Under the pieces are notes generated by a model, which was given only the letters and a program-made list of their open reading frames with translations, did not search any database and was not told the DNA's origin. Positions 11,920 through 27,555 of a stretch of DNA of 64,000 nucleotides are shown here, piece by piece. Numbering within the stretch: position 1 is the first letter of the stretch; every line of letters starts with the position of its first letter. This DNA is from Kutzneria buriramensis. GTDB lineage: Bacteria > Actinomycetota > Actinomycetes > Mycobacteriales > Pseudonocardiaceae. The stretch is taken from NCBI RefSeq assembly GCF_003387475.1, contig NZ_QUNO01000022.1:124001-188000 (forward strand), in the 5' to 3' direction. The translations under genes and the position numbers were made by a program.

Positions 11920-12465
11920 ATGACAGTCTTCGGAAGCGGTATCCCGGCCCGGCACAAGGGACGTGAAGTGTCGATCCGGCATCCGGACTTCAACCCGACA
12001 GACCCGACACAACTGGAACTGGTCAAGGTCGCCGCCCAGCAGTACCGGGACTACGCGCCTACGGCGGAAAAGTTGGTTCGGTCCCGCGTGCGGTCGAACT
12101 GGCGTTTCCTGCGCATACACATGGCCAGTGTCGCCGGCATCGCGCTGTTTCTGAAGTTGGGCATCACACCGAGCCGCGGGGACGTCCTCAAGGTGGGCGC
12201 TCTCGGGCTGGTGGTCATGCTGCTGGTCAACATCAGCTGGGCGTGGAACATCCTGTCCATCACACGGCAGGCCGAGCGCAAGTACAGGGTGATCGAGTCC
12301 ATGGAATCCACCCTTCCGGTCCGGCCATACACCGCCGAGTGGGAACTCGCCGATAGGGGCAAGAAGCTGCTGAGCTACCTACCGCGATGGGTGGCCGAGC
12401 TGGGGATGCCGCTGCTGATGTCGTTGGTGTGGCTCGGCGCCTACGGGGCGGTGTGGCTGCTATGA
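11920..12465 (+). CDS. RipA-type small integral membrane protein
   Basis: A 181-residue protein starting at ATG 11920 with GGAGGG about 10 bases upstream. It has two hydrophobic segments in the middle (MASVAGIALFLKLG and ALGLVVMLLVNISWAW), then RKYRVIESMESTLPVRPYTAEWE, a pattern typical of the RipA family of octameric membrane proteins (YR..n..K..vI..lE..LP..Py..EW), and a final hydrophobic helix. Function in actinomycetes is unknown; relatives often lie in accessory regions. The family call is from pattern memory. A possible Shine-Dalgarno but no clear promoter lies in the 190-base upstream gap. Confidence 0.7.
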   Translation: MTVFGSGIPARHKGREVSIRHPDFNPTDPTQLELVKVAAQQYRDYAPTAEKLVRSRVRSNWRFLRIHMASVAGIALFLKLGITPSRGDVLKVGALGLVVMLLVNISWAWNILSITRQAERKYRVIESMESTLPVRPYTAEWELADRGKKLLSYLPRWVAELGMPLLMSLVWLGAYGAVWLL

Positions 12466-12607
12466 ACCCGCTGGTAGTGGCTGCCTGGCAGCCGGCGGCG
12501 GCAATGCTTTGTCGATCTTCGAACCGCGCCAGTTCGGCGGCCGCGACCACCTGCAACGCGCGGGAGGTGGTGCGCGGGCCTGGTCGGGGTGGTCGGCTCA
12601 CCTGAGG

Positions 12608-13348
12608 TCAGGCCAGTCGGAGCACCAACCAGATGTCGTCGTGGCGACACTCAACCACCGCGCCGTCGAGCAGATGGACCTCCACGCCGGGGAAGTACCG
12701 ATGGTTGGCCGGCAGCCCGCGCATCCGCACTATCCGGGTGGCAAGGCCGGCTGCCGAACCGCCGGCGGCCAACCGCACCCACTGCCCGCGCTGCAGATCA
12801 GTCGCCCATACCGCCTCCTCGCTCAGCACCGTCGCGCTGGGAAACCGCCAGGTGGCGATCAGCAAGCCCGCCAGCGGCGCCACCACCAGGATCAGCAGCC
12901 ACCAGCCGACGGGCTGTGTCTGCCAGTACACCGCAGCGCTGACCAGTGCACCCGCGATCACGCCCAGCAGCTGTGCGGACGTGGCGTGCACTGTCCTGTC
13001 TCCGCCGATCTCCACGACGTCGACCGGCACCCGCACGGTTCCGTCGCCGCGGTCTCCCGGCATCCGGTCCGGCATCACCACCTCGCCGCCCGCCGGTCGG
13101 TCGGCCAGTTCGGGCAGCTCCATCCACCCCAGCGCCATGGTCACCTGGTCCTCGGTGACGGGCTGGATGTCTTCGCACGTGACGCACATCCACCACAAGG
13201 CGCTGGTCTCCGGATCGTCTACGGCCTCCATCAGCCCGTGCGGGCCCGCCGGGCACAGCATCGCCTCTGCGTCATGCCGTTTGTTCCAGCGATTGAGCAC
13301 GTCCGCCAAGTGCGCCGGGTTGTCCGCATCCTCCCCGAACTCGGTCAT
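12608..13348 (-). CDS. Membrane protein with N-terminal Cys-rich segment
   Basis: A 246-residue protein from ATG at 13348, whose ATGA overlaps the stop of the 65-residue gene upstream; GGCAGGG precedes the start. The N-terminal cytoplasmic part holds MLCPAGPH and WWMCVTCED, possibly a zinc site. Two adjacent hydrophobic helices follow (LLGVIAGALVSAAVYW and WWLLILVVAPLAGLLIATW), then a beta-rich C-terminal region. No family was recognised. It is the last gene of a unit that also includes a 2H phosphoesterase and a TPR regulator. Confidence 0.75.
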   Translation of the reverse strand: MTEFGEDADNPAHLADVLNRWNKRHDAEAMLCPAGPHGLMEAVDDPETSALWWMCVTCEDIQPVTEDQVTMALGWMELPELADRPAGGEVVMPDRMPGDRGDGTVRVPVDVVEIGGDRTVHATSAQLLGVIAGALVSAAVYWQTQPVGWWLLILVVAPLAGLLIATWRFPSATVLSEEAVWATDLQRGQWVRLAAGGSAAGLATRIVRMRGLPANHRYFPGVEVHLLDGAVVECRHDDIWLVLRLA

Positions 13349-13542
13349 GCCCTGCCGCCATCGACCGCGAGGTGATGCTCGACAAGCACCCGGCGTGGCA
13401 CGGCTTGCCCGGCCTCCACATCGAGCGTCGACGCCTCGATCCGGGCAGCGGACGCGTTGCGTGACGATGTCCACGGGACCGCGCGGGAGCCGACGTCCAG
13501 CGCGACGGTGAGGTCTGCCGTGACCACGGTACCGACCGCCAT
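13345..13542 (-). CDS. 65-residue hypothetical protein
   Basis: A small ORF with an excellent ribosome site (AAGGAGG about 7 bases before ATG 13542) and a stop that overlaps the ATG of the next gene (ATGA). The product is mostly beta-prone (AVGTVVTADLTVALDVGS... LDVEAGQAVPRRVLVEHHLAV), with no Cys and no hydrophobic segment. It may be a small partner of the downstream membrane protein. The ribosome site and overlap are the evidence for coding; function is unknown. Confidence 0.7.
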   Translation of the reverse strand: MAVGTVVTADLTVALDVGSRAVPWTSSRNASAARIEASTLDVEAGQAVPRRVLVEHHLAVDGGRA

Positions 13543-13620
13543 AGGTGCCTCCTTGAAGCGCGATCTGGCTGCAGCAGGTACTGCCCGGAGCTGCCGATCC
13601 GTGCGGCTGTTGGCTCCCGG

Positions 13621-13636
13621 CGTTGCCTATAGGCGG
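13621..13636. promoter_or_regulatory. 16-bp motif with a 10-bp palindrome, repeated at 63884
   Basis: CGTTGCCTATAGGCGG contains the perfect palindrome GCCTATAGGC. The identical 16 bases recur at 63884-63899. Both copies lie upstream of minus-strand units that contain small proteins and membrane proteins close to a 2H phosphoesterase. This could be an operator; the match alone is only modestly improbable by chance. Confidence 0.4.
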
Positions 13637-13749
13637 CGCCGGCCGGCGTGCGGCGACAGCAGCGGCGAAACCCGCGCGAACACCGAGGATCGACGGCGCC
13701 TTTCTGTAGCCGTGAAGCGGTTCGGCTCGTGCGGGCGGAGGCGGCGGAT

Positions 13750-14463
13750 TCAGCCCTGCAGCTGCACCGTGTGCACTGGCTGCACGAGGTAGCCGCGGTC
13801 GGCCCGTTCGAGCCGCACCAGCTCGGCGGTCGACACCACCTGCAGAGCTCGGGGGAGGGGTCGCAGGGCCTCCACGGCCTGCACGAGAGGTCCTGCCGGC
13901 TGAGCGCGGCGACTGTAGGCGACACCCAGGTGCGGGCGGAACGCGCTGCGCGGCGGCGGGGTGGCGGTCTCGCCGAGCACGTCGATCGTGGCGGCTCGGA
14001 GCCGGTCGTGCAGCCGCAGCAAGTCGTCCCACGGGGCGACGGACAACCGAATAGCGCCACGTGATCCGGCCAAGGGGCCCACTTCGAGCGCGAGCGATTT
14101 CAGATCCGCGCAACGAGCGCGCGCGGCGGCCGCGAGGCGGGGGAGGTGATCGAGTGGAACGTCGCTTTCCCATCCGACGCGGCTGACCGTCAGGTGGAGG
14201 GCGTCCGGCGCGACCAGGTCGAGGCCGGAGTGGTCGGCGAGGCCGGCCTGCGCCTGGCACACGAGGTTGAGCACGGCCGAGTTCGGTCGGGTCAGCACCA
14301 TCCAGTGGTAGCTGGCGCGGCCGGTCCACCAGCCGGGTCGGTCCCAGTGCTCGACCATCGTCTCGACCTGCTGGAACGAGACCCAGTCGTGCTCGTGGAT
14401 CACGTCGGTGTCGGTCAGGGACGCGGGAGGAGTCGCAGGAAACGGGGCGCTGCGGCCACTCAT
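13750..14463 (-). CDS. 2H phosphoesterase (2'-5' RNA ligase-like)
   Basis: A 237-residue protein from ATG 14463, overlapping the stop of the upstream regulator (ATGA). It has the two H-x-(T/S)-like motifs of the 2H superfamily: HLTVSRV and HLGVAYS about 90 residues later (the second has Gly in place of Thr/Ser). It also has the hydrophobic strands expected between them (LALEVGPLAG, IRLSVAPW). 2H proteins hydrolyse 2',3'-cyclic phosphates or ligate or cleave 2'-5' linkages in RNA and signalling nucleotides. Co-expression with a TPR regulator is likely. A second member of the family lies at 62689-63333. Confidence 0.8.
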   Translation of the reverse strand: MSGRSAPFPATPPASLTDTDVIHEHDWVSFQQVETMVEHWDRPGWWTGRASYHWMVLTRPNSAVLNLVCQAQAGLADHSGLDLVAPDALHLTVSRVGWESDVPLDHLPRLAAAARARCADLKSLALEVGPLAGSRGAIRLSVAPWDDLLRLHDRLRAATIDVLGETATPPPRSAFRPHLGVAYSRRAQPAGPLVQAVEALRPLPRALQVVSTAELVRLERADRGYLVQPVHTVQLQG

Positions 14464-15722
14464 GCGGCCAGTCCGGCGGCGACCCGGTTCTCGCGGCGCG
14501 AGGCCCAACTGGTCAAGGTGGCGGCGAACGCCTCGACAGCGGGCACCGGCGCGACACCGGCGGCGTCCGTGTGCAGCGCGTGCGCCCGGTCGTAGACGCT
14601 GCGGATCGGGTGTCGGGCGGAAGCGGCCAGGGCCTCACTACCGAGTTTCATCGCTTCTTCGACCTCGCCGTCCAGCAGCAGCGCGGCGGCGTTGTCCAGA
14701 CCCACCAGCGACTGCGACCAGATGCTGGTCGAGGTGTCCACCAGGGCGGAGTAGGCCCGGACCTGCGCGGTGTCGCCGATGCCGAGCATCGCGGTTGCCG
14801 CGTTGGCCGCGGCCCGAGGCAGGCCGTAGGCGCCGAACGAGATGCAGGAGGTCAGCTGGGCCGGCGCGTCGCGGTGGGCATCCAGCGCCGCCAGAGCCTG
14901 GTCCACCGCTCGGTAGGTTTCGCTGGCGTTGCCGAGCTTGGCGTGCGCGCGGGCCTGCCCGTTGACGAGCAGCCGCACCAACTGGCCGTCCAGGCGGGCG
15001 TAGCGCTGCCCGTCGGTCGCGAGCTCCAGCGCCAGTTCGGCGTCGCCGACGCAGTAGGCCCCCTGAGCCTGGGTGGCGCGAACCCAGGCCCGGAGGTCCT
15101 GGTCTCCCGTCTCGCTGGCGTAGAACCACGCCTCCTCGCCGTACAGGTCCGCCAGCGCCGGCCGGCGGGCGTTGATCGCCATGTAGGCCAGCAACCCGGC
15201 GACGCGGGCGGCGCGGAGGTAGATCTGGGTCTGTACCTTCGGCGTGTGGCCGCCGGCCAGCATCCTCATGACCGACTTGTGGATCGCCCGGGCCTCGCCA
15301 ATCAGGCGGAACGGGCCCGCGGCTTCGTAGCGGTCCACGACGCCGTCGATCCTGTCGTCGAGCATGGTCAGCGCCGAGGTCGTGTCCGCAGTCAACTGGG
15401 TGAGCCGCGCCGCCGCGGCCTGCGGGTTCTCCCACCGCGCTGTCGGCTCCAAGGCCGGCACCGCGGCTGCTCCCCGCGGCCGCGCCGGTGGGAACAACTC
15501 CGTCTCCGCAGCGCCCAACACCGCGGCGACCGCGGCGGAGATCCGGGAATCCCGTGGGCGCCAGCCGAGGCGCTCCCACTTGCGGTACAGGGCGTCGTCG
15601 AGGACCACGCCGACTTCGGCCAACCGCTCGTTGACCGCCGCGACCAGTTCCGGGACGGTCAGGCCCATGACGCCCTCTCGGGCGTGGATCAGCGCCTCGT
15701 TGGGACCGTGGTCCGTGGCCAC
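14460..15722 (-). CDS. TPR-type transcriptional regulator (XRE-like N-terminus)
   Basis: A 420-residue protein starting at GTG 15722 behind AGGAGG. The N-terminal 80 residues resemble a degenerate helix-turn-helix (GLTVPELVAAVNERLAEVGV, then YRKWERLGWRPRDSRI). The rest is all-helical with TPR-like spacing, as in Streptomyces regulators that follow an XRE domain with a long tetratricopeptide sensor. Its stop overlaps the start of the 2H phosphoesterase gene, so it probably controls and is co-translated with it. DNA binding is inferred, not shown. Confidence 0.75.
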   Translation of the reverse strand: MATDHGPNEALIHAREGVMGLTVPELVAAVNERLAEVGVVLDDALYRKWERLGWRPRDSRISAAVAAVLGAAETELFPPARPRGAAAVPALEPTARWENPQAAAARLTQLTADTTSALTMLDDRIDGVVDRYEAAGPFRLIGEARAIHKSVMRMLAGGHTPKVQTQIYLRAARVAGLLAYMAINARRPALADLYGEEAWFYASETGDQDLRAWVRATQAQGAYCVGDAELALELATDGQRYARLDGQLVRLLVNGQARAHAKLGNASETYRAVDQALAALDAHRDAPAQLTSCISFGAYGLPRAAANAATAMLGIGDTAQVRAYSALVDTSTSIWSQSLVGLDNAAALLLDGEVEEAMKLGSEALAASARHPIRSVYDRAHALHTDAAGVAPVPAVEAFAATLTSWASRRENRVAAGLAA

Positions 15723-18076: not shown

Positions 18077-18415
18077 GTGGTCGTGCAGGTGTGGGAGCGG
18101 CTGGTGGTCATCGTTGACGGGGTGTTACTGCTGGACGACGGCGGTGCGGTGCAAGGCCGCTGGGCCCTGCCGGCCTCTGGTCAGACTGGGCCGCGGTTGT
18201 ACGACGCGCTCGTGCTCGCTGGCGCACCGCTGACTAGCGACCCGGCTCGGGCTTGGGTAATCGGCCGACCGGAATGGGTCGAGCTGCTGGTCGCCGCCAC
18301 CAACAATCAGGTCCTGACCGTCCGGGACGGCGGCGCTCCCATGCCTTTGCGCCGGCGGCTGACCGACATGGTGCTCGATGTCTACCGCCGCTACCTCGAC
18401 GACGACGCCACCTGA
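18077..18415 (+). CDS. Hypothetical protein, 112 residues
   Basis: Not recognised. Starts at GTG 18077. The amino-acid pattern is protein-like: ERLVVIVDGVLLLDDGGAVQ, a helix LYDALVLAGA, PEWVELLVAATN, and an acidic end YRRYLDDDAT. There is no hydrophobic segment and no strong ribosome site. It could be leaderless or start at a nearby GTG. Its stop is about 100 bases before an inverted-repeat promoter of the nucleotidyltransferase pair. Confidence 0.5.
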   Translation: MVVQVWERLVVIVDGVLLLDDGGAVQGRWALPASGQTGPRLYDALVLAGAPLTSDPARAWVIGRPEWVELLVAATNNQVLTVRDGGAPMPLRRRLTDMVLDVYRRYLDDDAT

Positions 18416-18512
18416 CCCTCATCGGCGCGGCAACGCCAGCCCGGGCGGGCCAAGAAGCCGCCTCTCGCGCGCATGCGGCCGCGTCAGTCCCGATCCCCGG
18501 CCGACCAGGCGC

Positions 18513-18551
18513 TATACACTTCCCTCGCGCATATGTAGGGGGCAGTGTATA
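18513..18551. promoter_or_regulatory. Inverted-repeat operator of the nucleotidyltransferase pair
   Basis: TATACACT (18513-18520) is mirrored exactly by AGTGTATA (18544-18551), with partly matching inner arms (TCCCT and AGGGGG). It lies 21 bases upstream of the ATG of the helix-turn-helix gene and is AT-rich against its surroundings. AbiEi-type antitoxins autorepress through inverted repeats in this position; that this one does is inference. Confidence 0.6.
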
Positions 18552-18572
18552 TTTGAGCTGGTCAGGGAGGTG

Positions 18573-19289
18573 ATGATGGACAAGCAGATGCGAGGCGTCA
18601 TGCCCGTCAGTCAGGCGGCCGCCGAGCTGGGCGTGAGCCGGCGTCGGGTGCGCGAGCTCGTCAACGCCGACCAGTTAGCCGCGCGTAAGCCCGGCCACGA
18701 GGTGCTCGTCGACGCCGTCGCGGTCCGTCATCGCGCCCGCTCGTTGGCGCAGGGCAGCCGGCGCCCTCTGTCGCCGAAGATGGCGTGGGCGGTGCTGTGG
18801 CTGCTGGGCGGTCACCGGCCGAGCTGGGTCTCACCCACGGAGCTGATGCGGGTGCGTGACTACGCGAAGCGCCCACTCGGTCAACTGCCGCAGTTGCTGG
18901 CGCGGCGCGCGGACCACATCCCGGCCAGGATGCTCTCGTCAGCCCGGCAACAGGCCCGCACGTTGTCACAGGTCGCCGTCGGGGGAGCGCATGCCGCCAT
19001 CGCCCGCGGGGCCGACCTCGTCGTGCCCGACGACGTGGCCACGATCTTCTACGCATCGCCACACGGATACGAGCGGCTACGCGGGCTGCGGGGCGTTCGC
19101 TGGGGCGATCGCGACGCCAACGTCAGCATCCGGCTGGTGGAGCCGCACAACCTGAGCGAGGCGGCCCTGACCGAACTGCTGAAGGGCGAGGTGGTCCCGG
19201 CCGCCGTCGCGGCGGCGGACCTGCTCGACGAGCACGACGAGCGCGCCGCTCAGGCGGCGATCCGACTACTGCCCGGTCGCGGCGCGTGA
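18573..19289 (+). CDS. Helix-turn-helix protein, AbiEi-like antitoxin candidate
   Basis: A 238-residue protein. ATG 18573 (or 18576) follows CAGGGAGG closely. Residues about 10-40 (VSQAAAELGVSRRRVRELVN) form an excisionase/MerR-type helix-turn-helix, followed by a helical and mixed C-terminal region. It overlaps the next gene, a nucleotidyltransferase, by four bases (18573-19289 and 19286 onward). The pair has the layout of AbiE-type toxin-antitoxin systems: a DNA-binding antitoxin then an NTase toxin. The sequence is not a close match to classical AbiEi, so the functional call rests on gene order and the operator upstream. Confidence 0.75.
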   Translation: MMDKQMRGVMPVSQAAAELGVSRRRVRELVNADQLAARKPGHEVLVDAVAVRHRARSLAQGSRRPLSPKMAWAVLWLLGGHRPSWVSPTELMRVRDYAKRPLGQLPQLLARRADHIPARMLSSARQQARTLSQVAVGGAHAAIARGADLVVPDDVATIFYASPHGYERLRGLRGVRWGDRDANVSIRLVEPHNLSEAALTELLKGEVVPAAVAAADLLDEHDERAAQAAIRLLPGRGA

Positions 19290-20086
19290 TCCCAGCGGCG
19301 TGGGCGGAGTTGCCCGTGCTCGGCCGGGTCGCTCTGCCTGCACTGGCCGGAGAGGCCGATCAGAAGCTGTGGCCGCCGCTGCTGGAGATGTCGCGACGGC
19401 TGCCGCCTGAACACGCGGTGATCGGCGGCGTCATGGTCTTGCTGCACGGTCTGGCCGCCGGCCGCCGTCCGCCGGCCCGGGTGACCCGAGATGTCGACGT
19501 CCTGTTCAACGTCGAAGTGATGCCCGGCTCCTTGCAGGCCGCTGTGGCGGTGCTTGAGCAGGAGCTCGGGTACCACCTTGCCATCGACAGTCCTGCGGGG
19601 TTGGCACACCGCTACGTCGGCCCGGCAGGCGAGGTGATCGACGTGCTCGCCCCCGCGGGGGTGAAGCCGCGACCCGATCTGGTCACGACACCGCCCGGCA
19701 CCACGATCGAGGTTTTCGGCGGCAGGAAGGCATTGCAGCACCGTGTGGTCATCCAGGCCAGCTACGACGGGCAGTCGGCGGCGGTGGTTGTGCCGGATCT
19801 CGGCCGCGCCATGCTGATCAAGGCGAGTGCCTACGGTGTGGATAGCAGGAAAGGGCCCGCCGCGTCGTTCAACTCACGGCATTTGCAGGACCTGGTGTAT
19901 CTGCTGACCACGGTCGACGACCTCGATGCGCTGCTGGACGCGCTCGGCCCACCGCCTGCCGAGGGTCACTTCGACCAGGCTGCTGTGCTGGACGACCCAA
20001 ACCACCACTGCTGGGAGACCGCCGGTCAAGCTCTCGCTGACGCACGGCTGGTGTGGGCGGAACTGCGCGGGATCGTGGAGGCGTGA
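19286..20086 (+). CDS. Nucleotidyltransferase, AbiEii-like toxin candidate
   Basis: A 266-residue protein, start overlapping the upstream gene. VIGGVMVLLHGLAAG then TRDVDVLFNV match the nucleotidyltransferase core (GG...H...R.T.D.D), giving two catalytic Asp residues in DVD; VIDVLAPAGV may supply the third acidic residue. AbiEii and MNT-type toxins transfer nucleotides to tRNA or partner proteins. In such pairs the upstream gene represses and neutralises. The product ends with a helical segment (ADARLVWAELRGIVEA). A stand-alone NTase of unrelated function cannot be excluded. Confidence 0.8.
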   Translation: MIPAAWAELPVLGRVALPALAGEADQKLWPPLLEMSRRLPPEHAVIGGVMVLLHGLAAGRRPPARVTRDVDVLFNVEVMPGSLQAAVAVLEQELGYHLAIDSPAGLAHRYVGPAGEVIDVLAPAGVKPRPDLVTTPPGTTIEVFGGRKALQHRVVIQASYDGQSAAVVVPDLGRAMLIKASAYGVDSRKGPAASFNSRHLQDLVYLLTTVDDLDALLDALGPPPAEGHFDQAAVLDDPNHHCWETAGQALADARLVWAELRGIVEA

Positions 20087-20317: not shown

Positions 20318-23300
20318 TCAGCGCTCAAGAGTGGTGAACGGTGCGCAAGCCGCATCAGCCTCGAGGTACATGGCCACACTGGCTTTCAGCGCTGCGACGA
20401 AGTTGGTCAATTCAGTGTTGGCGGCCCCGATCTCTCCGCATAGCCCCGACGGGCCGGCCGCTTCCTGCAGCCGACTGGCCAGGTGCACCGCAGGTGGCGC
20501 GGTGCCGAGTAGAAGCTGCTGCTGAGCCAGTCGGTGAGCCGAGTCCGCCAGGGTGCCGATCCGGTCTCGGACCGCTGCAAGCTTGGCGATCTGGGCGTTC
20601 ACTTCCTCGGCCCGAAACACGATCACTTCACCACGTGGGTCATCGCGCCCTCGCACCCGAGCAGTGACCGGGGACGCGTCATTGTGGTTGTCGACGAGGT
20701 CGTGGTCGACGTCAGACAGCCGGTTGATGCGCTCATCGTCTGCGACGCTCGCACCGAAGTCTGGCGGATTCGCATCGGCCAGTGAGGCTTCGTACTGCTG
20801 CATCACAGACACCGCCTGGGCCTTTCCTGCGGTCGCCGCGGCGCTGGCCCAGAACACGCTGTCACCGCCGCCGGTGATCGCGGCCCTTATCAGTGCTACC
20901 TGGTCGGGTTGGCGCACCGGCGGGGGCATGGTGTTGCGAGCCTGGCAATGCGCGTCCGCTATCCACTGGATGGTGTGCCCCGTGCTCGCCGCGCGGTCGC
21001 TGCAGTTAGACACGCGCTTGGCCAGCGCAACCAGCCGGTTCCCGGCCAGCTCTGCTGCTGGCCCAGACCAGTTCTGTAGCAACGCTGTCAGCAGGGCATC
21101 CAAGATAGACGCGATGTCGGCGAGTTCGGTGCTCTGCCAGAGCCAATCGTCCGCAATCGACGAGACCTGCGAAGCCCCCGGGGTCTGCAGCCATTCGTAC
21201 AGCTGCTCGTGTGTGTAAGCATTCCAGTTGATGGTGCCCGTCGTAGCGGGCCGGCTCGTATCGCGCGGCGTAGCCGCTTGGGCCGCGGAGCGTGCAAGGC
21301 CGTCGGCCGACCCGTCCGCCGGATTCACCACTGGCGGACGGGGACCGGCCTCGGGGATGGAGCGAGCGTTCTGACCGCATGTCGGGCAGTCAGGTCGGCA
21401 TGCGTCGAGGCTGCGGATGTTGTTTTCCAAAGTGGCGAGGTCGAATCCGTACTGCCGATTGGCCGGCATTTCGGGCATACCGGAGAGCAGGCTGCAAGCG
21501 GCATGCGCGGCCATGTGCCCAGCGACGCCAGCCACAGCCGCGGTCGCCGCTGGTGGGGCGGTGTAGGCCGGGGGACGAAGTGGCAGTTCGTCTCGCTGGT
21601 CGTGCTCTGCGAGGGAGGTGCAGTCGTAGCAGGGCCCCGTGCCCGGCAGATACAGGCCCACGGTGACATGGGTGCCGTGATGGCCGCTGTACACCCACGG
21701 CGTCTTCGTCTGGGCGCAGGCATGGTTCGTCCAGGACCGGATGCCTTGGGGATGGTCCACGGCCAGCACCAGCAGGTCGCACCTGGCTGCAAGTTCGGCC
21801 AACGTCGCCGGCCCGGTAACGGCCGCCGTTTCGCCAGTGACGGTGATCTCGCAGTTGCGTTCACGCACCCGCTCGATCATCACGTCGACCTTGGGCCGGC
21901 CCAGGTCCCACTCGTGGAATAGGGCATGCCGGTTGAGGTTGAACGCCGTCGCCGCATCCGGCTCAACCAAGTGCAACTCGCCGACGCCCGACTGGGCCAG
22001 AGCTAGAGCGGCAGAGGAACCGACCCCGCCGACACCGACCACGACCACCCGGGCCTGCCGCAGCAACAGCTGGGTGTCCCACCCCGAGCGTCGTGGCACT
22101 CGGTCCATCCATCGAAGGAGTTCCTGGCTGCGGCTGTACCGCTCTGACTCCCGCGCGGTCAACGCATCGACAGCGCCGGCGTCCTCGACGTAGCCGCCGC
22201 GGACCATCTCGTCGATAGCCGCACGGATCTCGTCAGTGGTTGTGTCGGGAAAGCTGCGGGTTAGCGTGGCAACGACTTCGTCGAGTGTCCGGGTGCCGTC
22301 GAGGGCTGTCAGCAGCTCCCACGCCCACCCATCCGGATCCGAGACGTTTCGTTGGATCCTTGACGACACCGCGCCGCACTGGACTCGATAGCCGTCGGAT
22401 CGTCCGGCCAGGAAAGGTTTCCGCGTGACCCGCAGGCGGGAACGCTCGGTGAACTCATGGCCGCACAGGCCGAGGTGAATCCGGTCAGCGTTCCGACTGC
22501 CGTCCGCGACGGGGCACGGGGCTCGATGGGCGTCCTCGTACACGTCCGCCGGACCTGGAGCGTGTTCGAGTTGCTTCGCGACTGATTCCGTGGAAAGGCA
22601 CGCGGTGGCGATGAGGAAGGCGGCTGCCTTGTCTTCGGGCAGCAGCCAGAAGAGGCTAGGGAGGCTGACTCCTCGGCGTTCCTCGGGCGGATGGTCGTGA
22701 CTGACGAGCTGAAGCAGCGGTGTCAGTTCGCGCGCCAACATCGCTTCAGGATCCCGGCCGGCGGCCCCACACGAGGTGCGCACCACGTCGTCGCCTCCGA
22801 TGGAGGCGGTGGCCAGAGCTCGGAACGCAGTGCCCACCGCAGGGGCGATGTCCGGGCCGACGCGCACCACCAAGTCCGCGATTCGCGCGGTGAGGTCGTG
22901 ACGTCGCACCATCGCCACAGCTGCGGCGACGCGGCTTCGGTATTGCGGCGTGTTCGTAGCCTCTTGAGTTTGCAACCACTCGAGGAACGTGGTCGGAGGC
23001 GTCTCCACGGCGGCGTCCCATGGCAGAGGGCGGCTCGCCCATGTCTCAGTGGGCGGCGCGGCATCATGCAGGGGCGGCATGTCCAGCTCGGGTTCCCCCA
23101 ACAGCCGGAGCTCCCAGCCATTCCGGACGCGCGCGATGACCTTGAGCGCCACCACGAGCCGTGTCTTTCCGGAAACGCCCAGCCCGGCCATCTTGACCCC
23201 GAGTCGCGGAGGTTGGAACCACCTGCGAAGGTCTTCCTCGGTGGGCTTTTCGTCGAAGCTCACGACCACCGGCGGAAATTCGCGATCTCGGGGCAGCACG

Positions 23301-23875
23301 TCCGCGGCCGGCACTTCCTGAGCCGCCAGCGTCTGGTCCCCGACGAAGGTTGCCAGCAGAGCGCGCCAGCTCCCGGCCTCCGCGTGGTCCAGCAGGAGAT
23401 CGCTGGCCGCGGTTGCCAACCGCGCCTGCGACCGCGCCTCACGCGCGAAGGCGGCGTGCGCTGCCATAGTCGCCTCCGCCAGAGCCCAGACCTCGTCGAC
23501 TCTGGCGGAAACGGAGACCAGGAACGCCGCGGCGGCACCAAGCAGCCGGCGGATCGCACGCTGCTCCGTCTCCGTCTCCGTCTCTGGCAGCTCGACCAGG
23601 CAGGGCGAGGGTGAACCAGCACCGTCCACAATGAGGATTTCCGTTGGGAACAGATTCCCCAGAAACTCCTGCCATCTACTCAGCGGCGAGCTCTTGTAGC
23701 CGGGCGGCAGGGCGTCCACGCGGGCGGCATGCAGGCACACGTCGTTGAGCGCGTTGACAGCGTCGCGAGACGCGAGAACGATTACCTGGAGCACGGCGAT
23801 GGACAAGTCCCTGCCGAGCACGCCATAGCGCGTTGCAACCTGGTCGCTCACGCCACACAGCGTGCCGCCATTCAC
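20318..23875 (-). CDS. Giant ThiF/E1-like adenylyltransferase with RRE and ESX-like C-terminus
   Basis: An 1185-residue protein. Residues 1-470 are mixed alpha/beta and unrecognised. Residues about 480-570 look like a PqqD-type RiPP recognition element (VQCGAVSSRIQ...WELLTALDGTRTLDEVVATL). Residues 608-835 form a ThiF/E1 domain: VVVGVGGVGSSAALALAQSG, Asp640, NLNRH, GRPKVD, and a zinc site from CYDC (749-752) and CPTC (830-833). After a Pro/Ala linker, residues about 880-985 contain WNAYTHEQLYEWL and NWSGPAAELAG, like WXG100/PPE helical domains, and a further helical segment ends the protein. E1 domains adenylate C-termini. GTG 23875 is used; GTG 23851 is possible. Confidence 0.8.
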   Translation of the reverse strand: MNGGTLCGVSDQVATRYGVLGRDLSIAVLQVIVLASRDAVNALNDVCLHAARVDALPPGYKSSPLSRWQEFLGNLFPTEILIVDGAGSPSPCLVELPETETETEQRAIRRLLGAAAAFLVSVSARVDEVWALAEATMAAHAAFAREARSQARLATAASDLLLDHAEAGSWRALLATFVGDQTLAAQEVPAADVLPRDREFPPVVVSFDEKPTEEDLRRWFQPPRLGVKMAGLGVSGKTRLVVALKVIARVRNGWELRLLGEPELDMPPLHDAAPPTETWASRPLPWDAAVETPPTTFLEWLQTQEATNTPQYRSRVAAAVAMVRRHDLTARIADLVVRVGPDIAPAVGTAFRALATASIGGDDVVRTSCGAAGRDPEAMLARELTPLLQLVSHDHPPEERRGVSLPSLFWLLPEDKAAAFLIATACLSTESVAKQLEHAPGPADVYEDAHRAPCPVADGSRNADRIHLGLCGHEFTERSRLRVTRKPFLAGRSDGYRVQCGAVSSRIQRNVSDPDGWAWELLTALDGTRTLDEVVATLTRSFPDTTTDEIRAAIDEMVRGGYVEDAGAVDALTARESERYSRSQELLRWMDRVPRRSGWDTQLLLRQARVVVVGVGGVGSSAALALAQSGVGELHLVEPDAATAFNLNRHALFHEWDLGRPKVDVMIERVRERNCEITVTGETAAVTGPATLAELAARCDLLVLAVDHPQGIRSWTNHACAQTKTPWVYSGHHGTHVTVGLYLPGTGPCYDCTSLAEHDQRDELPLRPPAYTAPPAATAAVAGVAGHMAAHAACSLLSGMPEMPANRQYGFDLATLENNIRSLDACRPDCPTCGQNARSIPEAGPRPPVVNPADGSADGLARSAAQAATPRDTSRPATTGTINWNAYTHEQLYEWLQTPGASQVSSIADDWLWQSTELADIASILDALLTALLQNWSGPAAELAGNRLVALAKRVSNCSDRAASTGHTIQWIADAHCQARNTMPPPVRQPDQVALIRAAITGGGDSVFWASAAATAGKAQAVSVMQQYEASLADANPPDFGASVADDERINRLSDVDHDLVDNHNDASPVTARVRGRDDPRGEVIVFRAEEVNAQIAKLAAVRDRIGTLADSAHRLAQQQLLLGTAPPAVHLASRLQEAAGPSGLCGEIGAANTELTNFVAALKASVAMYLEADAACAPFTTLER

Positions 23876-23916
23876 CCGGTCTCACAAGTGAAATAACGTT
23901 AACCGCCCGCGAAGTC

Positions 23917-23982
23917 CGTGAAACGTGAAGCGTGAACCCGACGACAGAAGCGTGAATCACGCATGGCCCGGACGGTTCACGC
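23917..23982. repeat. Left heptamer array (CGTGAAN) and palindrome
   Basis: Three contiguous 7-bp units CGTGAAA, CGTGAAG and CGTGAAC occupy 23917-23937. A further CGTGAAT at 23951 is part of the perfect palindrome GCGTGAATCACGC (23950-23962), and an inverted TTCACGC lies at 23976-23982. The array sits between the divergent E1-like gene and the gene starting at 24027, and is mirrored downstream of the latter. Confidence 0.8.
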
Positions 23983-24013
23983 AACCCTGGAAGTGCGCGT
24001 GCGGCGCCTCGGC

Positions 24014-24019
24014 CATAAT
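24014..24019 (+). promoter_or_regulatory. -10 element of a leaderless transcript
   Basis: CATAAT ends seven bases before the GTG at 24027, with no Shine-Dalgarno between, as is usual for leaderless actinomycete genes. No clear -35 was seen; the repeat array just upstream may take its place as activator sites. Confidence 0.45.
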
Positions 24020-24026
24020 CGCGAGC

Positions 24027-25028
24027 GTGACCGATGAGTCGGACCCCACCAGCTCAGGCAGCGACCCGTGCGACGGCAGCGATGACACGGGTTTCACCCA
24101 TCCCCCGCACGAATGCGGGTGGCTCAGCGCGGCTGGTGGGCCGGCCATGCCCTGGCTCGTGGTCTACGGCCCAGGGACGGCCTCGGAAGAGGTCGCGGTG
24201 ACCATTGAGCAGACGTGCGCCGTGCGCTGCGTCCGTGCCAGGCTGCACACCCTGGACGAGGCGTTGACGATCTCGATCAAGAGGTACACCGGATTGGTGC
24301 TGGTGCTGCCGTCCGCGCCGCCGCCCCGCGGCCAGGACCCCAGATGGAAGGACTACCGCACGCTCGCCGAGGACTTCCGCAACAGGAACTTGCCGGCCGC
24401 GGAGGGGTTCTTCCCGAGGTCGACCTGCTGGCATGAGGTCGGAGTCCTGCAGGTTGTGTATCCCGAAGACGCGCTGGCGGACCCTGCCGTGACGGACTTG
24501 ATCAAGGATGCCTGCGACCGCCACCCCTTCAGTGAGGGCGTCCCGTTCACCGGCGACGTCTTCAGGATCTTCCAGCCCGGCATGGCCCAGATCGTGAGGA
24601 ACGACGAGGTCGCGGCGGCCCTTTCGGACAACTGGCGGGTCCTCCGGGCCTGGGGGATCAGCGACATCCCGAAGGCCCGCGTCATCAAGACCGGCGTGGA
24701 CAACCGGCGCGACGAGCTCGACCACGATCCCAAGAAGCCGACACTGCACCGTCCCATCCTGGGCCTCGACATGAACCGCCTGGATCTGCTCTTGTTCCGC
24801 CCCGAGGAGACACCTCTCCCTGATCCGAACAGCACCGCCGAAGAGCAGAAGAAGGCGGCCGAAAACTTTCGCGCTAGCGGAGCAAGGGTCGTACGCAAAC
24901 TGGTCGAGGAGCTGGTCCGCGACAACCCTTGGTTTCACTGCCCGCAAGGCAAAGCAGGCAAGAATTATGCACAAGATCGTTTCGCTGACCTGTACCGAAT
25001 TCTCCGGACGGTGCTCAGCCTGTCGTGA
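24027..25028 (+). CDS. Hypothetical protein bounded by inverted heptamer arrays
   Basis: Not recognised. A 333-residue protein if it starts at GTG 24027, seven bases after a -10-like CATAAT. The N-terminus is acidic and Ser/Asp-rich with a CGW motif. The middle has alternating strands (AMPWLVVYGPGTA, TGLVLVLPSAPPP, VGVLQVVYPED) suggesting an alpha/beta domain. The C-terminal third is charged and helical (AEEQKKAAENFRASGARVVR). There is no transposase, integrase or nuclease motif. It is divergent from the E1-like gene and flanked on both sides by mirrored 7-bp repeat arrays, so it could be a regulated partner of that enzyme or cargo of a small element. Confidence 0.65.
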   Translation: MTDESDPTSSGSDPCDGSDDTGFTHPPHECGWLSAAGGPAMPWLVVYGPGTASEEVAVTIEQTCAVRCVRARLHTLDEALTISIKRYTGLVLVLPSAPPPRGQDPRWKDYRTLAEDFRNRNLPAAEGFFPRSTCWHEVGVLQVVYPEDALADPAVTDLIKDACDRHPFSEGVPFTGDVFRIFQPGMAQIVRNDEVAAALSDNWRVLRAWGISDIPKARVIKTGVDNRRDELDHDPKKPTLHRPILGLDMNRLDLLLFRPEETPLPDPNSTAEEQKKAAENFRASGARVVRKLVEELVRDNPWFHCPQGKAGKNYAQDRFADLYRILRTVLSLS

Positions 25029-25037
25029 CGTCTAGGC

Positions 25038-25114
25038 GGTTCACGCTTCACGCTTTACGTGCCGGATTGACGGTCAACGGTTCACGACCTGCGCCAGGGA
25101 ATCACGCTTTACGT
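25038..25114. repeat. Right heptamer array (TTCACGC/TTTACGT)
   Basis: TTCACGC, TTCACGC and TTTACGT are contiguous at 25040-25060. TTCACGA follows at 25081, then ATCACGC and TTTACGT at 25101-25114. Taken with the left array, bases 25038-25059 are the reverse complement of 23917-23938 at 20 of 22 positions. The arrays therefore form an inverted pair about 1.1 kb apart. Confidence 0.8.
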
Positions 25115-25177
25115 AACACTCTCCGAGGTCATGCTTAACGTTTCTGTCGCGCGATTTCACCGTGTATTCCATGTGTC

Positions 25178-25462
25178 ATGACCAAAGACTCGCGAAATGT
25201 CGTCATATCGGCCGTCGCCGCGTTGCTGCTTGTCGTGATCGTGTTCGTGTTCATCACCATCAGCCCCTGGATACTGGTCGGCGTGCCGGCCGTGTTGTGG
25301 GCGGTCGCCGGGATCGTCCGGGCGATCAACGGCTCGGCCGACCGCGAGCGCGACTCCGGCAACGAGAAGCCCGCCGACCACCCTCGCCGTGACCTGCCCG
25401 GCGCTCGCGCCAACGAGGCCGGGCTGCCGCCGGTCGAAGACCCATCGCAGGAGAACCCCTGA
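25178..25462 (+). CDS. Small two-helix membrane protein
   Basis: A 94-residue protein from ATG 25178 with two adjacent hydrophobic helices (VVISAVAALLLVVIVFVFIT and PWILVGVPAVLWAVAGIV) and a charged, proline-containing tail, probably cytoplasmic. Its stop overlaps an ATG at 25462 (TGATG) in the ligase frame, which suggests translational coupling if the longer ligase start is used. The family was not recognised. Confidence 0.7.
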   Translation: MTKDSRNVVISAVAALLLVVIVFVFITISPWILVGVPAVLWAVAGIVRAINGSADRERDSGNEKPADHPRRDLPGARANEAGLPPVEDPSQENP

Positions 25463-25566
25463 TGCCCGTCACGGCTGCCCGGGCCGTGCGGACGTGGCGG
25501 CGGCCCGCGGCAGCATGGTCACCGTGCCCCACCAGGTTGTCGGTGGGTGTCGGTAGCTTGACCACC

Positions 25567-27555
25567 GTGAACGCCGGGGAACGTATCCAGGAACTCGCCG
25601 ACCAGGTCGTGGCGCTGCGCGACGCCTACTACCGGGGCTCGCCGCTGGTGGCCGACGCCGAGTACGACGCGATCGAGGACGAGCTACGGGCCCTGATCGA
25701 GGCGAACCCGGGGCTGACGCCGGACCCGAACCCGCTGGAGCAGGTGGGCGCCCCGTCGGTGCTGCACGCGCCGGTCCGGCACTCGCGGCCGATGCTGTCG
25801 CTGGAGAAGGCGACCAAGCCCGAGCAGGTGGCGGCGTTCTTCGACCGGTTCCCCGGCCAGCCGGTGGCGGTGATGCCCAAGCTGGACGGGCTGTCGGTGG
25901 CCGTGGTCTACGAGGACGGCCGGCTGGTGCGGGCGGTCACCCGCGGCGACGGCACAACCGGCGACGACGTCACGGCACTGGTCCGGGCGCTGGTCGACGG
26001 CGTGCCGGAGCGCATCGACGCCCCGGGCCGGGTCGAGGTGCGCGGCGAGGCGGTGATGCTGCGCTCCATCTTCGCCGCCTACAACGCCGCCCACCCGGAC
26101 AAGCCGCTGATCAACCCGCGCAACGCCGCCGCCGGCACGCTGCGGGCCAAGGACCCGGCAACGGTGTCCGAGCGGCGGTTGCAGTTCTTCGGGTTCGACC
26201 TGGACACCTCGGCTGAGGCCGCCGCCGACCTGGGCCAGGCGCTGCGGGCGCTCGGCCTGGAAGCCGCCGACATGCAGGTCTGCGCGGACGCCGAGCAGGC
26301 GCAGGCGGCGATCACCGAGATCGAGCGCAGCCGCAACGAGCGCGACTACGACCTCGACGGCGCGGTGCTGCGGCTGGCCGACCGGGAGGCGTATGCCGCC
26401 GCCGGCACACGCTCGAACTCGCCACGAGGGGCGCTGGCGTTCAAGTTCGCCGCCGAGGAGAAGACCACGGTGCTGCTGGACGTGGTGTGGGACGTGGGCA
26501 AGACCGGCAAGATCGCCCCGGTGGCCCATCTGGAGCCGGTGTTCGTCGGCGGCACCACCGTCACCCGGGCGACCCTGGCCAACCAGGAGGTCATCCGCGC
26601 CCGCGGCATCCGCATCGGGGACACGGTGCTGGTCCGCCGGGCCGGCGACGTGATCCCGTTCGTGGCCGGCGTGCTGGACGAGTCCAAGCGCACCGGCGCG
26701 GAGCGGGAGATCGTGCCGCCCACCACCTGCCCGTCCTGCCAGCAGCCGCTGACCGAGCAGGGCAACAGCCGGGAACTGTTCTGCACCAACGCTTCCTGCC
26801 CGGCGCAGACCACCCGTCGGCTGATCCACTGGGCCTCCCGCGCGGCCGCCGACATCGAGGCCGTCGGTCCGGTGTGGATCGAGCGGCTGGCCGAGTCCGG
26901 CGACCTGGACAACCCGCCGGACTTCTACACCCTGACCAAGGAGCGGCTGCTGGAGTTCGACCGCATCGGCGAGACCTCGGCCGCCCGCATGATCGAGTCC
27001 ATCGCCGCCAGCCGGAACGTCGGCCTGCGCCGGGCCCTGATCGGCCTGGCCATCCCCATGGCCTCCGAGGGCACCGCCAGCCGGCTGTGCCGCGCCGGTT
27101 TCCGGACCCTGGAGGAGGTCGCCGACGCCGGCGAAGAGCGCCTGGTCGCCGTGGAGGACATCGGCCCCCGGGTGGCCGCCTCGCTCACCGAGCACCTGAC
27201 CCGGCTGCGTCCGGAGCTCAAGCGGCTGCGGGAGCGCGGCGTCTCCCTCGACGTCCGCGAAGAGGACCTGCCGCCGGTGGTGGCCGCCGGCGCGCCGCTG
27301 GCCGGCAAGACCGTCGTGGTCACCGGGGCGATCAACGACCCGCGCTCCGGCGAGAAGGTGCCGCGCCCGGCGTTCCAGCGGCTGTGCGAGAAGGCCGGCG
27401 CGACCATCGCCTCGTCGGTGTCGGCCAACACCGACCTGCTCATCACCGGCGCCGAGGTCGGCGCGAGCAAGCTGGCCAAGGCCGAAAAGCTCGGCGTCCA
27501 GGTCACCGACCAGGCCCAGATCTGGCCCCAGCTCATCGACGCCGGCATCGCGTGA
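25567..27555 (+). CDS. ligA: NAD+-dependent DNA ligase (LigA-type)
   Basis: A 662-residue protein with the full LigA domain order: the Ia NAD-binding helices (YYRGSPLVADAEYD), the adenylation domain with nucleophile Lys105 in MPKLDGLSV, an OB fold (GKTGKIAPVAHLEPV...RAGDVIPFV), a four-Cys zinc finger (CPSCQQPL...CTNASCPAQ), helix-hairpin-helix motifs and a C-terminal BRCT domain. It seals nicks using NAD+. GTG 25567 is preferred because it starts at the conserved Ia region; an ATG at 25462 overlapping the upstream stop would add 35 unconserved residues. Given the accessory surroundings this is probably a second ligase, not the housekeeping copy. Confidence 0.92.
   Translation: MNAGERIQELADQVVALRDAYYRGSPLVADAEYDAIEDELRALIEANPGLTPDPNPLEQVGAPSVLHAPVRHSRPMLSLEKATKPEQVAAFFDRFPGQPVAVMPKLDGLSVAVVYEDGRLVRAVTRGDGTTGDDVTALVRALVDGVPERIDAPGRVEVRGEAVMLRSIFAAYNAAHPDKPLINPRNAAAGTLRAKDPATVSERRLQFFGFDLDTSAEAAADLGQALRALGLEAADMQVCADAEQAQAAITEIERSRNERDYDLDGAVLRLADREAYAAAGTRSNSPRGALAFKFAAEEKTTVLLDVVWDVGKTGKIAPVAHLEPVFVGGTTVTRATLANQEVIRARGIRIGDTVLVRRAGDVIPFVAGVLDESKRTGAEREIVPPTTCPSCQQPLTEQGNSRELFCTNASCPAQTTRRLIHWASRAAADIEAVGPVWIERLAESGDLDNPPDFYTLTKERLLEFDRIGETSAARMIESIAASRNVGLRRALIGLAIPMASEGTASRLCRAGFRTLEEVADAGEERLVAVEDIGPRVAASLTEHLTRLRPELKRLRERGVSLDVREEDLPPVVAAGAPLAGKTVVVTGAINDPRSGEKVPRPAFQRLCEKAGATIASSVSANTDLLITGAEVGASKLAKAEKLGVQVTDQAQIWPQLIDAGIA

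Follow-up and report, generated by a model that had tools for sequence, protein, structure and literature searches.

What are two mirrored arrays of contiguous 7-bp repeats (heptads) doing on either side of a single gene in Kutzneria buriramensis? The arrays lie in a stretch of 64,000 nucleotides (contig NZ_QUNO01000022.1, positions 124,001 to 188,000; hereafter the window) and bracket gene Y, which is flanked by genes X and Z. The first-pass annotation had offered two options, namely operator arrays for an oligomeric regulator looping around the gene, or termini of a small mobile unit. The arrays are here proposed, with moderate confidence, to be operators of a three-gene X-Y-Z module, bound by an oligomerising regulator encoded by the module itself, most likely Y. 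The features concerned are the following.

23917..23937, minus strand: left heptad array, CGTGAAA-CGTGAAG-CGTGAAC (sequence, Tandem Repeats Finder (TRF) and shuffle test)
25040..25060, plus strand: right heptad array, TTCACGC-TTCACGC-TTTACGT (sequence, TRF and shuffle test)
25067..25087, plus strand: second heptad triplet, TTGACGG-TCAACGG-TTCACGA, 27 bp past the first triplet
25101..25141, plus strand: two heptad pairs 27 bp apart, ATCACGC-TTTACGT (25101-25114) and GTCATGC-TTAACGT (25128-25141)
23852..24026: intergenic region A, between the divergent genes X and Y, with TTNACG sites at 23897, 23917, 23924, 23931 and 23951 on the minus strand and at 23976 on the plus strand
25029..25177: intergenic region B, between Y and Z, with seven TTNACG sites on the plus strand and a 27-bp period
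20318..23875, minus strand: gene X, 1185 amino acids (sequence, with family and PDB sequence matches)
24027..25028, plus strand: gene Y, 333 amino acids, bracketed by the arrays, the proposed regulator
25178..25462, plus strand: gene Z, a small hydrophobic protein of 94 amino acids, third member of the module, upstream of ligA

The sequence and coordinates of the mirrored arrays were borne out by direct reading and TRF. The same held for the 22-nt inverted repeat formed by 23917-23938 and 25038-25059 (91% complementary, 20 of 22 positions), for the 13-bp palindrome GCGTGAATCACGC near the left array (23950..23962), and for the outlying copies on each side (CGTGAA at 23951 and TTCACG at 25081), to which copies beyond the earlier listing were added, namely TTAACG at 23897 on the minus strand and additional heptads in 25067-25141. 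At most three heptads were contiguous. Counting degenerate ones, region B held about ten heptads, seven of which contained the full TTNACG; when it was sliced into 27-mers from position 25040, alignment held for columns two and three of the heptads and was absent from the final six bases of each unit. The two arrays were the sole lag-7 arrays at that stringency in the 64 kb, compared with a shuffle mean of 0.17 arrays (units of fewer than three letters being omitted from this test), and a matched array pair within 1.5 kb appeared in none of 100 shuffles of the window. A 14-mer search with three mismatches yielded 9 matches for 8.7 expected, which by itself is not significant. Furthermore, 8 of the 28 TTCACG occurrences in the window fell in the 324 bp of regions A and B (0.14 expected). 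The genome-wide search for tandem heptads suggested in the first-pass annotation, carried out with TTYACGNTTYACG, gave 6 matches in the 12-Mb genome, four of them at this locus; by eye, the remaining two lay at the edges of apparent genes, one at the start and one close to the end. Among 394 genomes of the class, TTCACGNTTCACGNTTYACG was present in two, the source genome and G218. In the latter, nine exact copies of CGTGAAG (TTCACGC) formed a pure heptanucleotide repeat between two open reading frames (ORFs; L013, 8077-8146). No promoter was located, though both intergenic regions hold repeats, and Rfam returned a single match, far under its gathering score.

X-Y-Z modules were found, besides that of the window, at five other places, spread over three further genomes and plasmid pAS20800, with Y proteins 23-38% identical (39% by tblastn for the Y on pAS20800). 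Each of the six modules contained copies of a TTNAYG core in its two intergenic regions, and this presence of a related motif in the same two positions on both sides of Y supports operator arrays for an oligomeric regulator; looping around the gene is not needed for such a reading. In the five modules located in genomes, the 7-mers shared between regions A and B exceeded all 500 dinucleotide shuffles. The commonest shared word was TTCACG in the window, TTGACG or TTAACG in L063, and TTCATG in L066 and in both copies of L065. Word sharing between the two regions was weaker on the plasmid (5, 15 and 123 of 1000 shuffles at k = 6, 7 and 8, respectively). The plasmid regions had more 6-, 7- and 8-mers in common with those of the window than any of their 500 shuffles, and they were enriched in TTCACG (4 seen, 0.16 expected). 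Under a harsher control, in which region pairs were slid along the locus, the window, L065 copy 1 and L066 were unmatched, and L065 copy 2 stood at 16/654. Moreover, all four genomic copies of ATTCATGAAT in G729 lay within its two modules, as did two of the three copies in G831 within its module, the third overlapping or bordering a small ORF in L076. Since the motif differs between loci in step with the module, and ATTCATGAAT hardly occurs outside it, a module-encoded regulator is favoured. Sites were oriented away from Y in 12 of 13 cases in the window, 5 of 6 on the plasmid and 11 of 15 in L063. In L065 (6105-6150), a pair of 22-nt arms, separated by 2 nt and with 91% complementarity, was found right behind the stop codon of Y, built of the operator word.

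The spacing of the sites was also regular. Same-strand TTNACG pairs within 60 bp numbered 28 in the window and the plasmid together (23 when TTGACG was left out), and every one lay in the module intergenic regions, at distances of 7, 13, 14, 20, 27, 34, 41, 47 or 54 bp, that is, within 0.5 bp of n × 6.75 bp. The 12 adjacent gaps fitted a pitch of 6.75, and none of 5000 random gap sets equalled this fit when the pitch was scanned from 6 to 12. This quantised spacing lends further support to an oligomeric regulator and suggests a protein aligning along the DNA. If the arrays were instead functionless simple tandem repeats or old duplications, the exact TTCACGN repeats seen in G218 and in 73 viral-contig stretches would be in keeping, as would the resemblance of region B to four degenerate 27-bp units. 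Such an origin is judged improbable, given that the units are degenerate beyond the heptad core, that the spacing is not purely 7 bp, that diverged modules carry related words in each of their two intergenic regions, and that tandem pairs are nearly absent from the rest of the genome; in particular, placement on two sides and units that are both degenerate and phased speak against simple-repeat drift. The viral-contig arrays were short and exact, many of them four units long, with several arrays on some contigs (e.g. L139, L125, L090, L089 and L087). Their spacings were 7, 14, 21 bp and so on, with 27 bp occurring twice and 20 bp falling outside the 15 commonest spacings. Considered as relatives, they were judged unrelated, 5 of the 73 loci having been viewed in context.

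The other earlier option, in which a small mobile unit carries Y and has the arrays as its inverted ends, agrees with their inverted orientation and 20/22 match and with the patchy distribution of Y. It did not hold up and is now barely credible: Z, beyond the right array, is a module member in relatives, so that the module extends past the array and the arrays are not its ends; moreover, no recombinase family was recognised in Y, and the plasmid shows the same layout. As regards distribution, Y was matched in 13 of 390 genomes of the family, four of which carried five X-Y modules, three an orphan full-length Y and two the Y C-terminal domain only, fused to a sigma-70-like protein, the remaining four being weak matches. 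One such sigma-70-like protein, in L077 (14182-15279), ends in the Y C-terminal domain and lies beside a 740-amino-acid ORF (11932-14154). The N-terminal domain of X was found in five places in 4 of 386 genomes, every one beside Y, with a query built from these same modules. A contig search with one alignment returned a single relative, in Actinosynnema pretiosum, and a class-wide profile search with five candidates scored per genome matched 1 of 394 genomes, the source genome itself. Y was not found in phage records or viral contigs.

An empty site was sought using ligA (NAD-dependent DNA ligase, window 25462-27555) to find the flanks. A close copy of this gene (87-89%) was present in 4 of 6 congeners. 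The source genome had further partial copies at contig ends (C16, 90% protein identity; C45, 86%) and short 3′ pieces on contigs C9 and C6. In all six other ligA loci, homology to the window began at 25522-25538 (25537/25538 in the congener copies), with other sequence upstream. The upstream 2 kb of seven ligA loci had nothing in common at the same position, the one upstream match, of 233 bp between L165 and L168, lying at differing distances. No empty site was therefore comparable, because none of the six other loci shares the upstream flank. The multi-copy ligase gene ligA is apparently moving.

Turning to the protein that may bind the arrays, Y comprises a flavodoxin/TIR/receiver-like domain (residues 40-183) and a basic all-helical C-terminal domain (187-332); the fold comparison covers the N-terminal domain, and the model of the C-terminal domain is all-helical at low confidence. 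No match to Y was obtained in Pfam, NCBIfam or PADLOC. Its C-terminal domain is basic in all six modules (pI 9.2-9.6) and its N-terminal domain acidic in all six, and the charge of Z varies. Operators bound by the N-terminal domain of X, by Z or by a regulator encoded elsewhere, with Y a mere neighbour, would account for the lack of a known DNA-binding fold in Y and of arrays at the orphan Y loci scanned. Such a binder would also suit the restriction of the X N-terminal domain to modules and the presence close by of an excisionase-type helix-turn-helix (HTH) protein (18378-19289). This alternative is nevertheless considered rather unlikely: the X N-terminal domain is acidic in the five modules tested, Z differs in kind between modules, and no gene annotated as HTH occurs in the 12.9-kb plasmid stretch, to which this search was confined, the flanks of the other modules not having been searched for HTH genes. 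Two observations weigh against operators bound by Y, namely that the lattice was seen in the window and the plasmid only and not in more distant modules, and that the sliding control failed to separate L063 (59/589) or the plasmid (113/391).

With Y as the most likely binder, the regulator would recognise TTNA(C/T)G as an asymmetric half-site and bind successive copies in head-to-tail order. In the window and plasmid lineage it may oligomerise along the DNA with about 6.75 bp per subunit, so that four subunits would cover 27 bp. Region A has sites directed towards X and region B has sites directed towards Z; transcription of these two genes runs away from Y, which is why the arrays look like an inverted pair around it. 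Their occupancy would determine how strongly X and Y (from region A) and Z (from region B) are expressed, presumably through repression relieved by way of the receiver/TIR-like N-terminal domain of Y.

Among known operators, those of actinobacterial OmpR/SARP-type activators consist of direct repeats of short half-sites, e.g. GTTCACC, in promoters, with a spacing of 11 or 22 bp. The present arrays are alike in their direct repeats of a short half-site, but their spacings are 7, 13/14, 20 and 27 bp rather than 11 or 22. The first-pass annotation set contiguous 7-bp spacing apart from that of usual operators, but at least one precedent exists in the heptads of pSM19035, for which PMC9499535 describes asymmetric 7-bp WATCACW repeats, contiguous and both direct and inverted, as the sites of omega (ParB). 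According to the same account, the heptads overlap promoters of the system's own genes, and high-affinity binding needs two or more of them (PMC9499535). In that system 7-10 heptads are consecutive, and omega is a ribbon-helix-helix protein with a ParA partner. Literature searches on heptads and ribbon-helix-helix operators gave mainly pSM19035 work and reviews, and a broader one gave nothing on point among the papers listed. This precedent also speaks for regarding the arrays as a parS/iteron-like partition or maintenance site of a plasmid-derived module with a ParB-like or Rep-like binder, since contiguous heptads form the pSM19035 parS and overlap promoters (PMC9499535). One module is located on a plasmid, and a Walker-A pattern occurs in X of the window (GLGVSGKT at 231) and of L063 (242), with a near match in the plasmid X. 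A partition site is nonetheless highly improbable, as a ParA/ParB pair is annotated at another place on pAS20800 (13649-15207), X of L066 and of both L065 copies has no Walker-A pattern, and no ribbon-helix-helix or ParA family was matched by Pfam in the X, Y and Z proteins scanned. Given the shorter arrays of at most three contiguous heptads instead of 7-10, the 27-bp phasing and the absence of matches to these families, the locus was not assigned to the omega system.

Gene X probably starts at GTG 23851, judging from comparison with relatives. Its product has a module-specific N-terminal domain (about 1-190) common to the X proteins of other modules, a PqqD-like segment (517-558), a ThiF/E1-like domain (598-831), and a PPE-like and helical C-terminus. 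The middle part resembles MccB/PaaA-type ThiF enzymes with a PqqD-like domain (PDB sequence matches 3h5a MccB, 2.6e-25, and 5ff5 PaaA, 1.4e-15), whereas scans of three other X proteins (L063, L065 copy 1 and L066) gave no ThiF match. A hydrophobic segment near the C-terminus is present in the five other X proteins and absent from that of the window. The ThiF domain also matches the PADLOC models of E1-E2-type ubiquitin-like defence proteins (best 4.5e-18), but the ThiF part alone does so, and neither an E2 nor a peptidase could be recognised as a partner in the module. The two helical C-terminal parts of X match separate adjacent frames in relatives, e.g. G036 and G035. Beyond X, the excisionase-type HTH protein stands beside a weakly AbiEii-like protein (E 0.0023, under the Pfam cut-off; window 18378-20086), a possible toxin-antitoxin-like pair. 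The TRADD-N/EAD conflict systems of multicellular bacteria, as presented in PMC8195603, are alike in their multi-gene loci, swapped effectors and TIR-like parts, but no domain of the network named there was recognised, apart from a sub-threshold CyanoTRADDas_TM match in X of L066 (E 0.33). The module may be a conflict or signalling system.

A further-reaching proposal, put forward tentatively, is that Y founds a family of autoregulators, combining a receiver/TIR-like sensor with a new basic helical DNA-binding domain; these proteins would polymerise on DNA at 6.75 bp per subunit (27 bp for four) and so gate a system of three genes that moves horizontally and in which the effector part of X is swapped, here for an MccB-like adenylating enzyme. 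The helical domain also occurs behind sigma-70 regions. In the window, the ThiF (MccB/PaaA-like) enzyme occupies a slot filled by other sequence in relatives. Should a protein polymer underlie the 6.75-bp lattice, the heptad operators would have a geometry unlike that of the one precedent found. Furthermore, the locus-dependent motif (TTCACG, TTAACG, TTCATG) would provide a natural series for the co-evolution of regulator and operator, and the repeat pair becomes an operator code that can be put to the test, in a module whose Y is without a family name in Pfam, NCBIfam or PADLOC.
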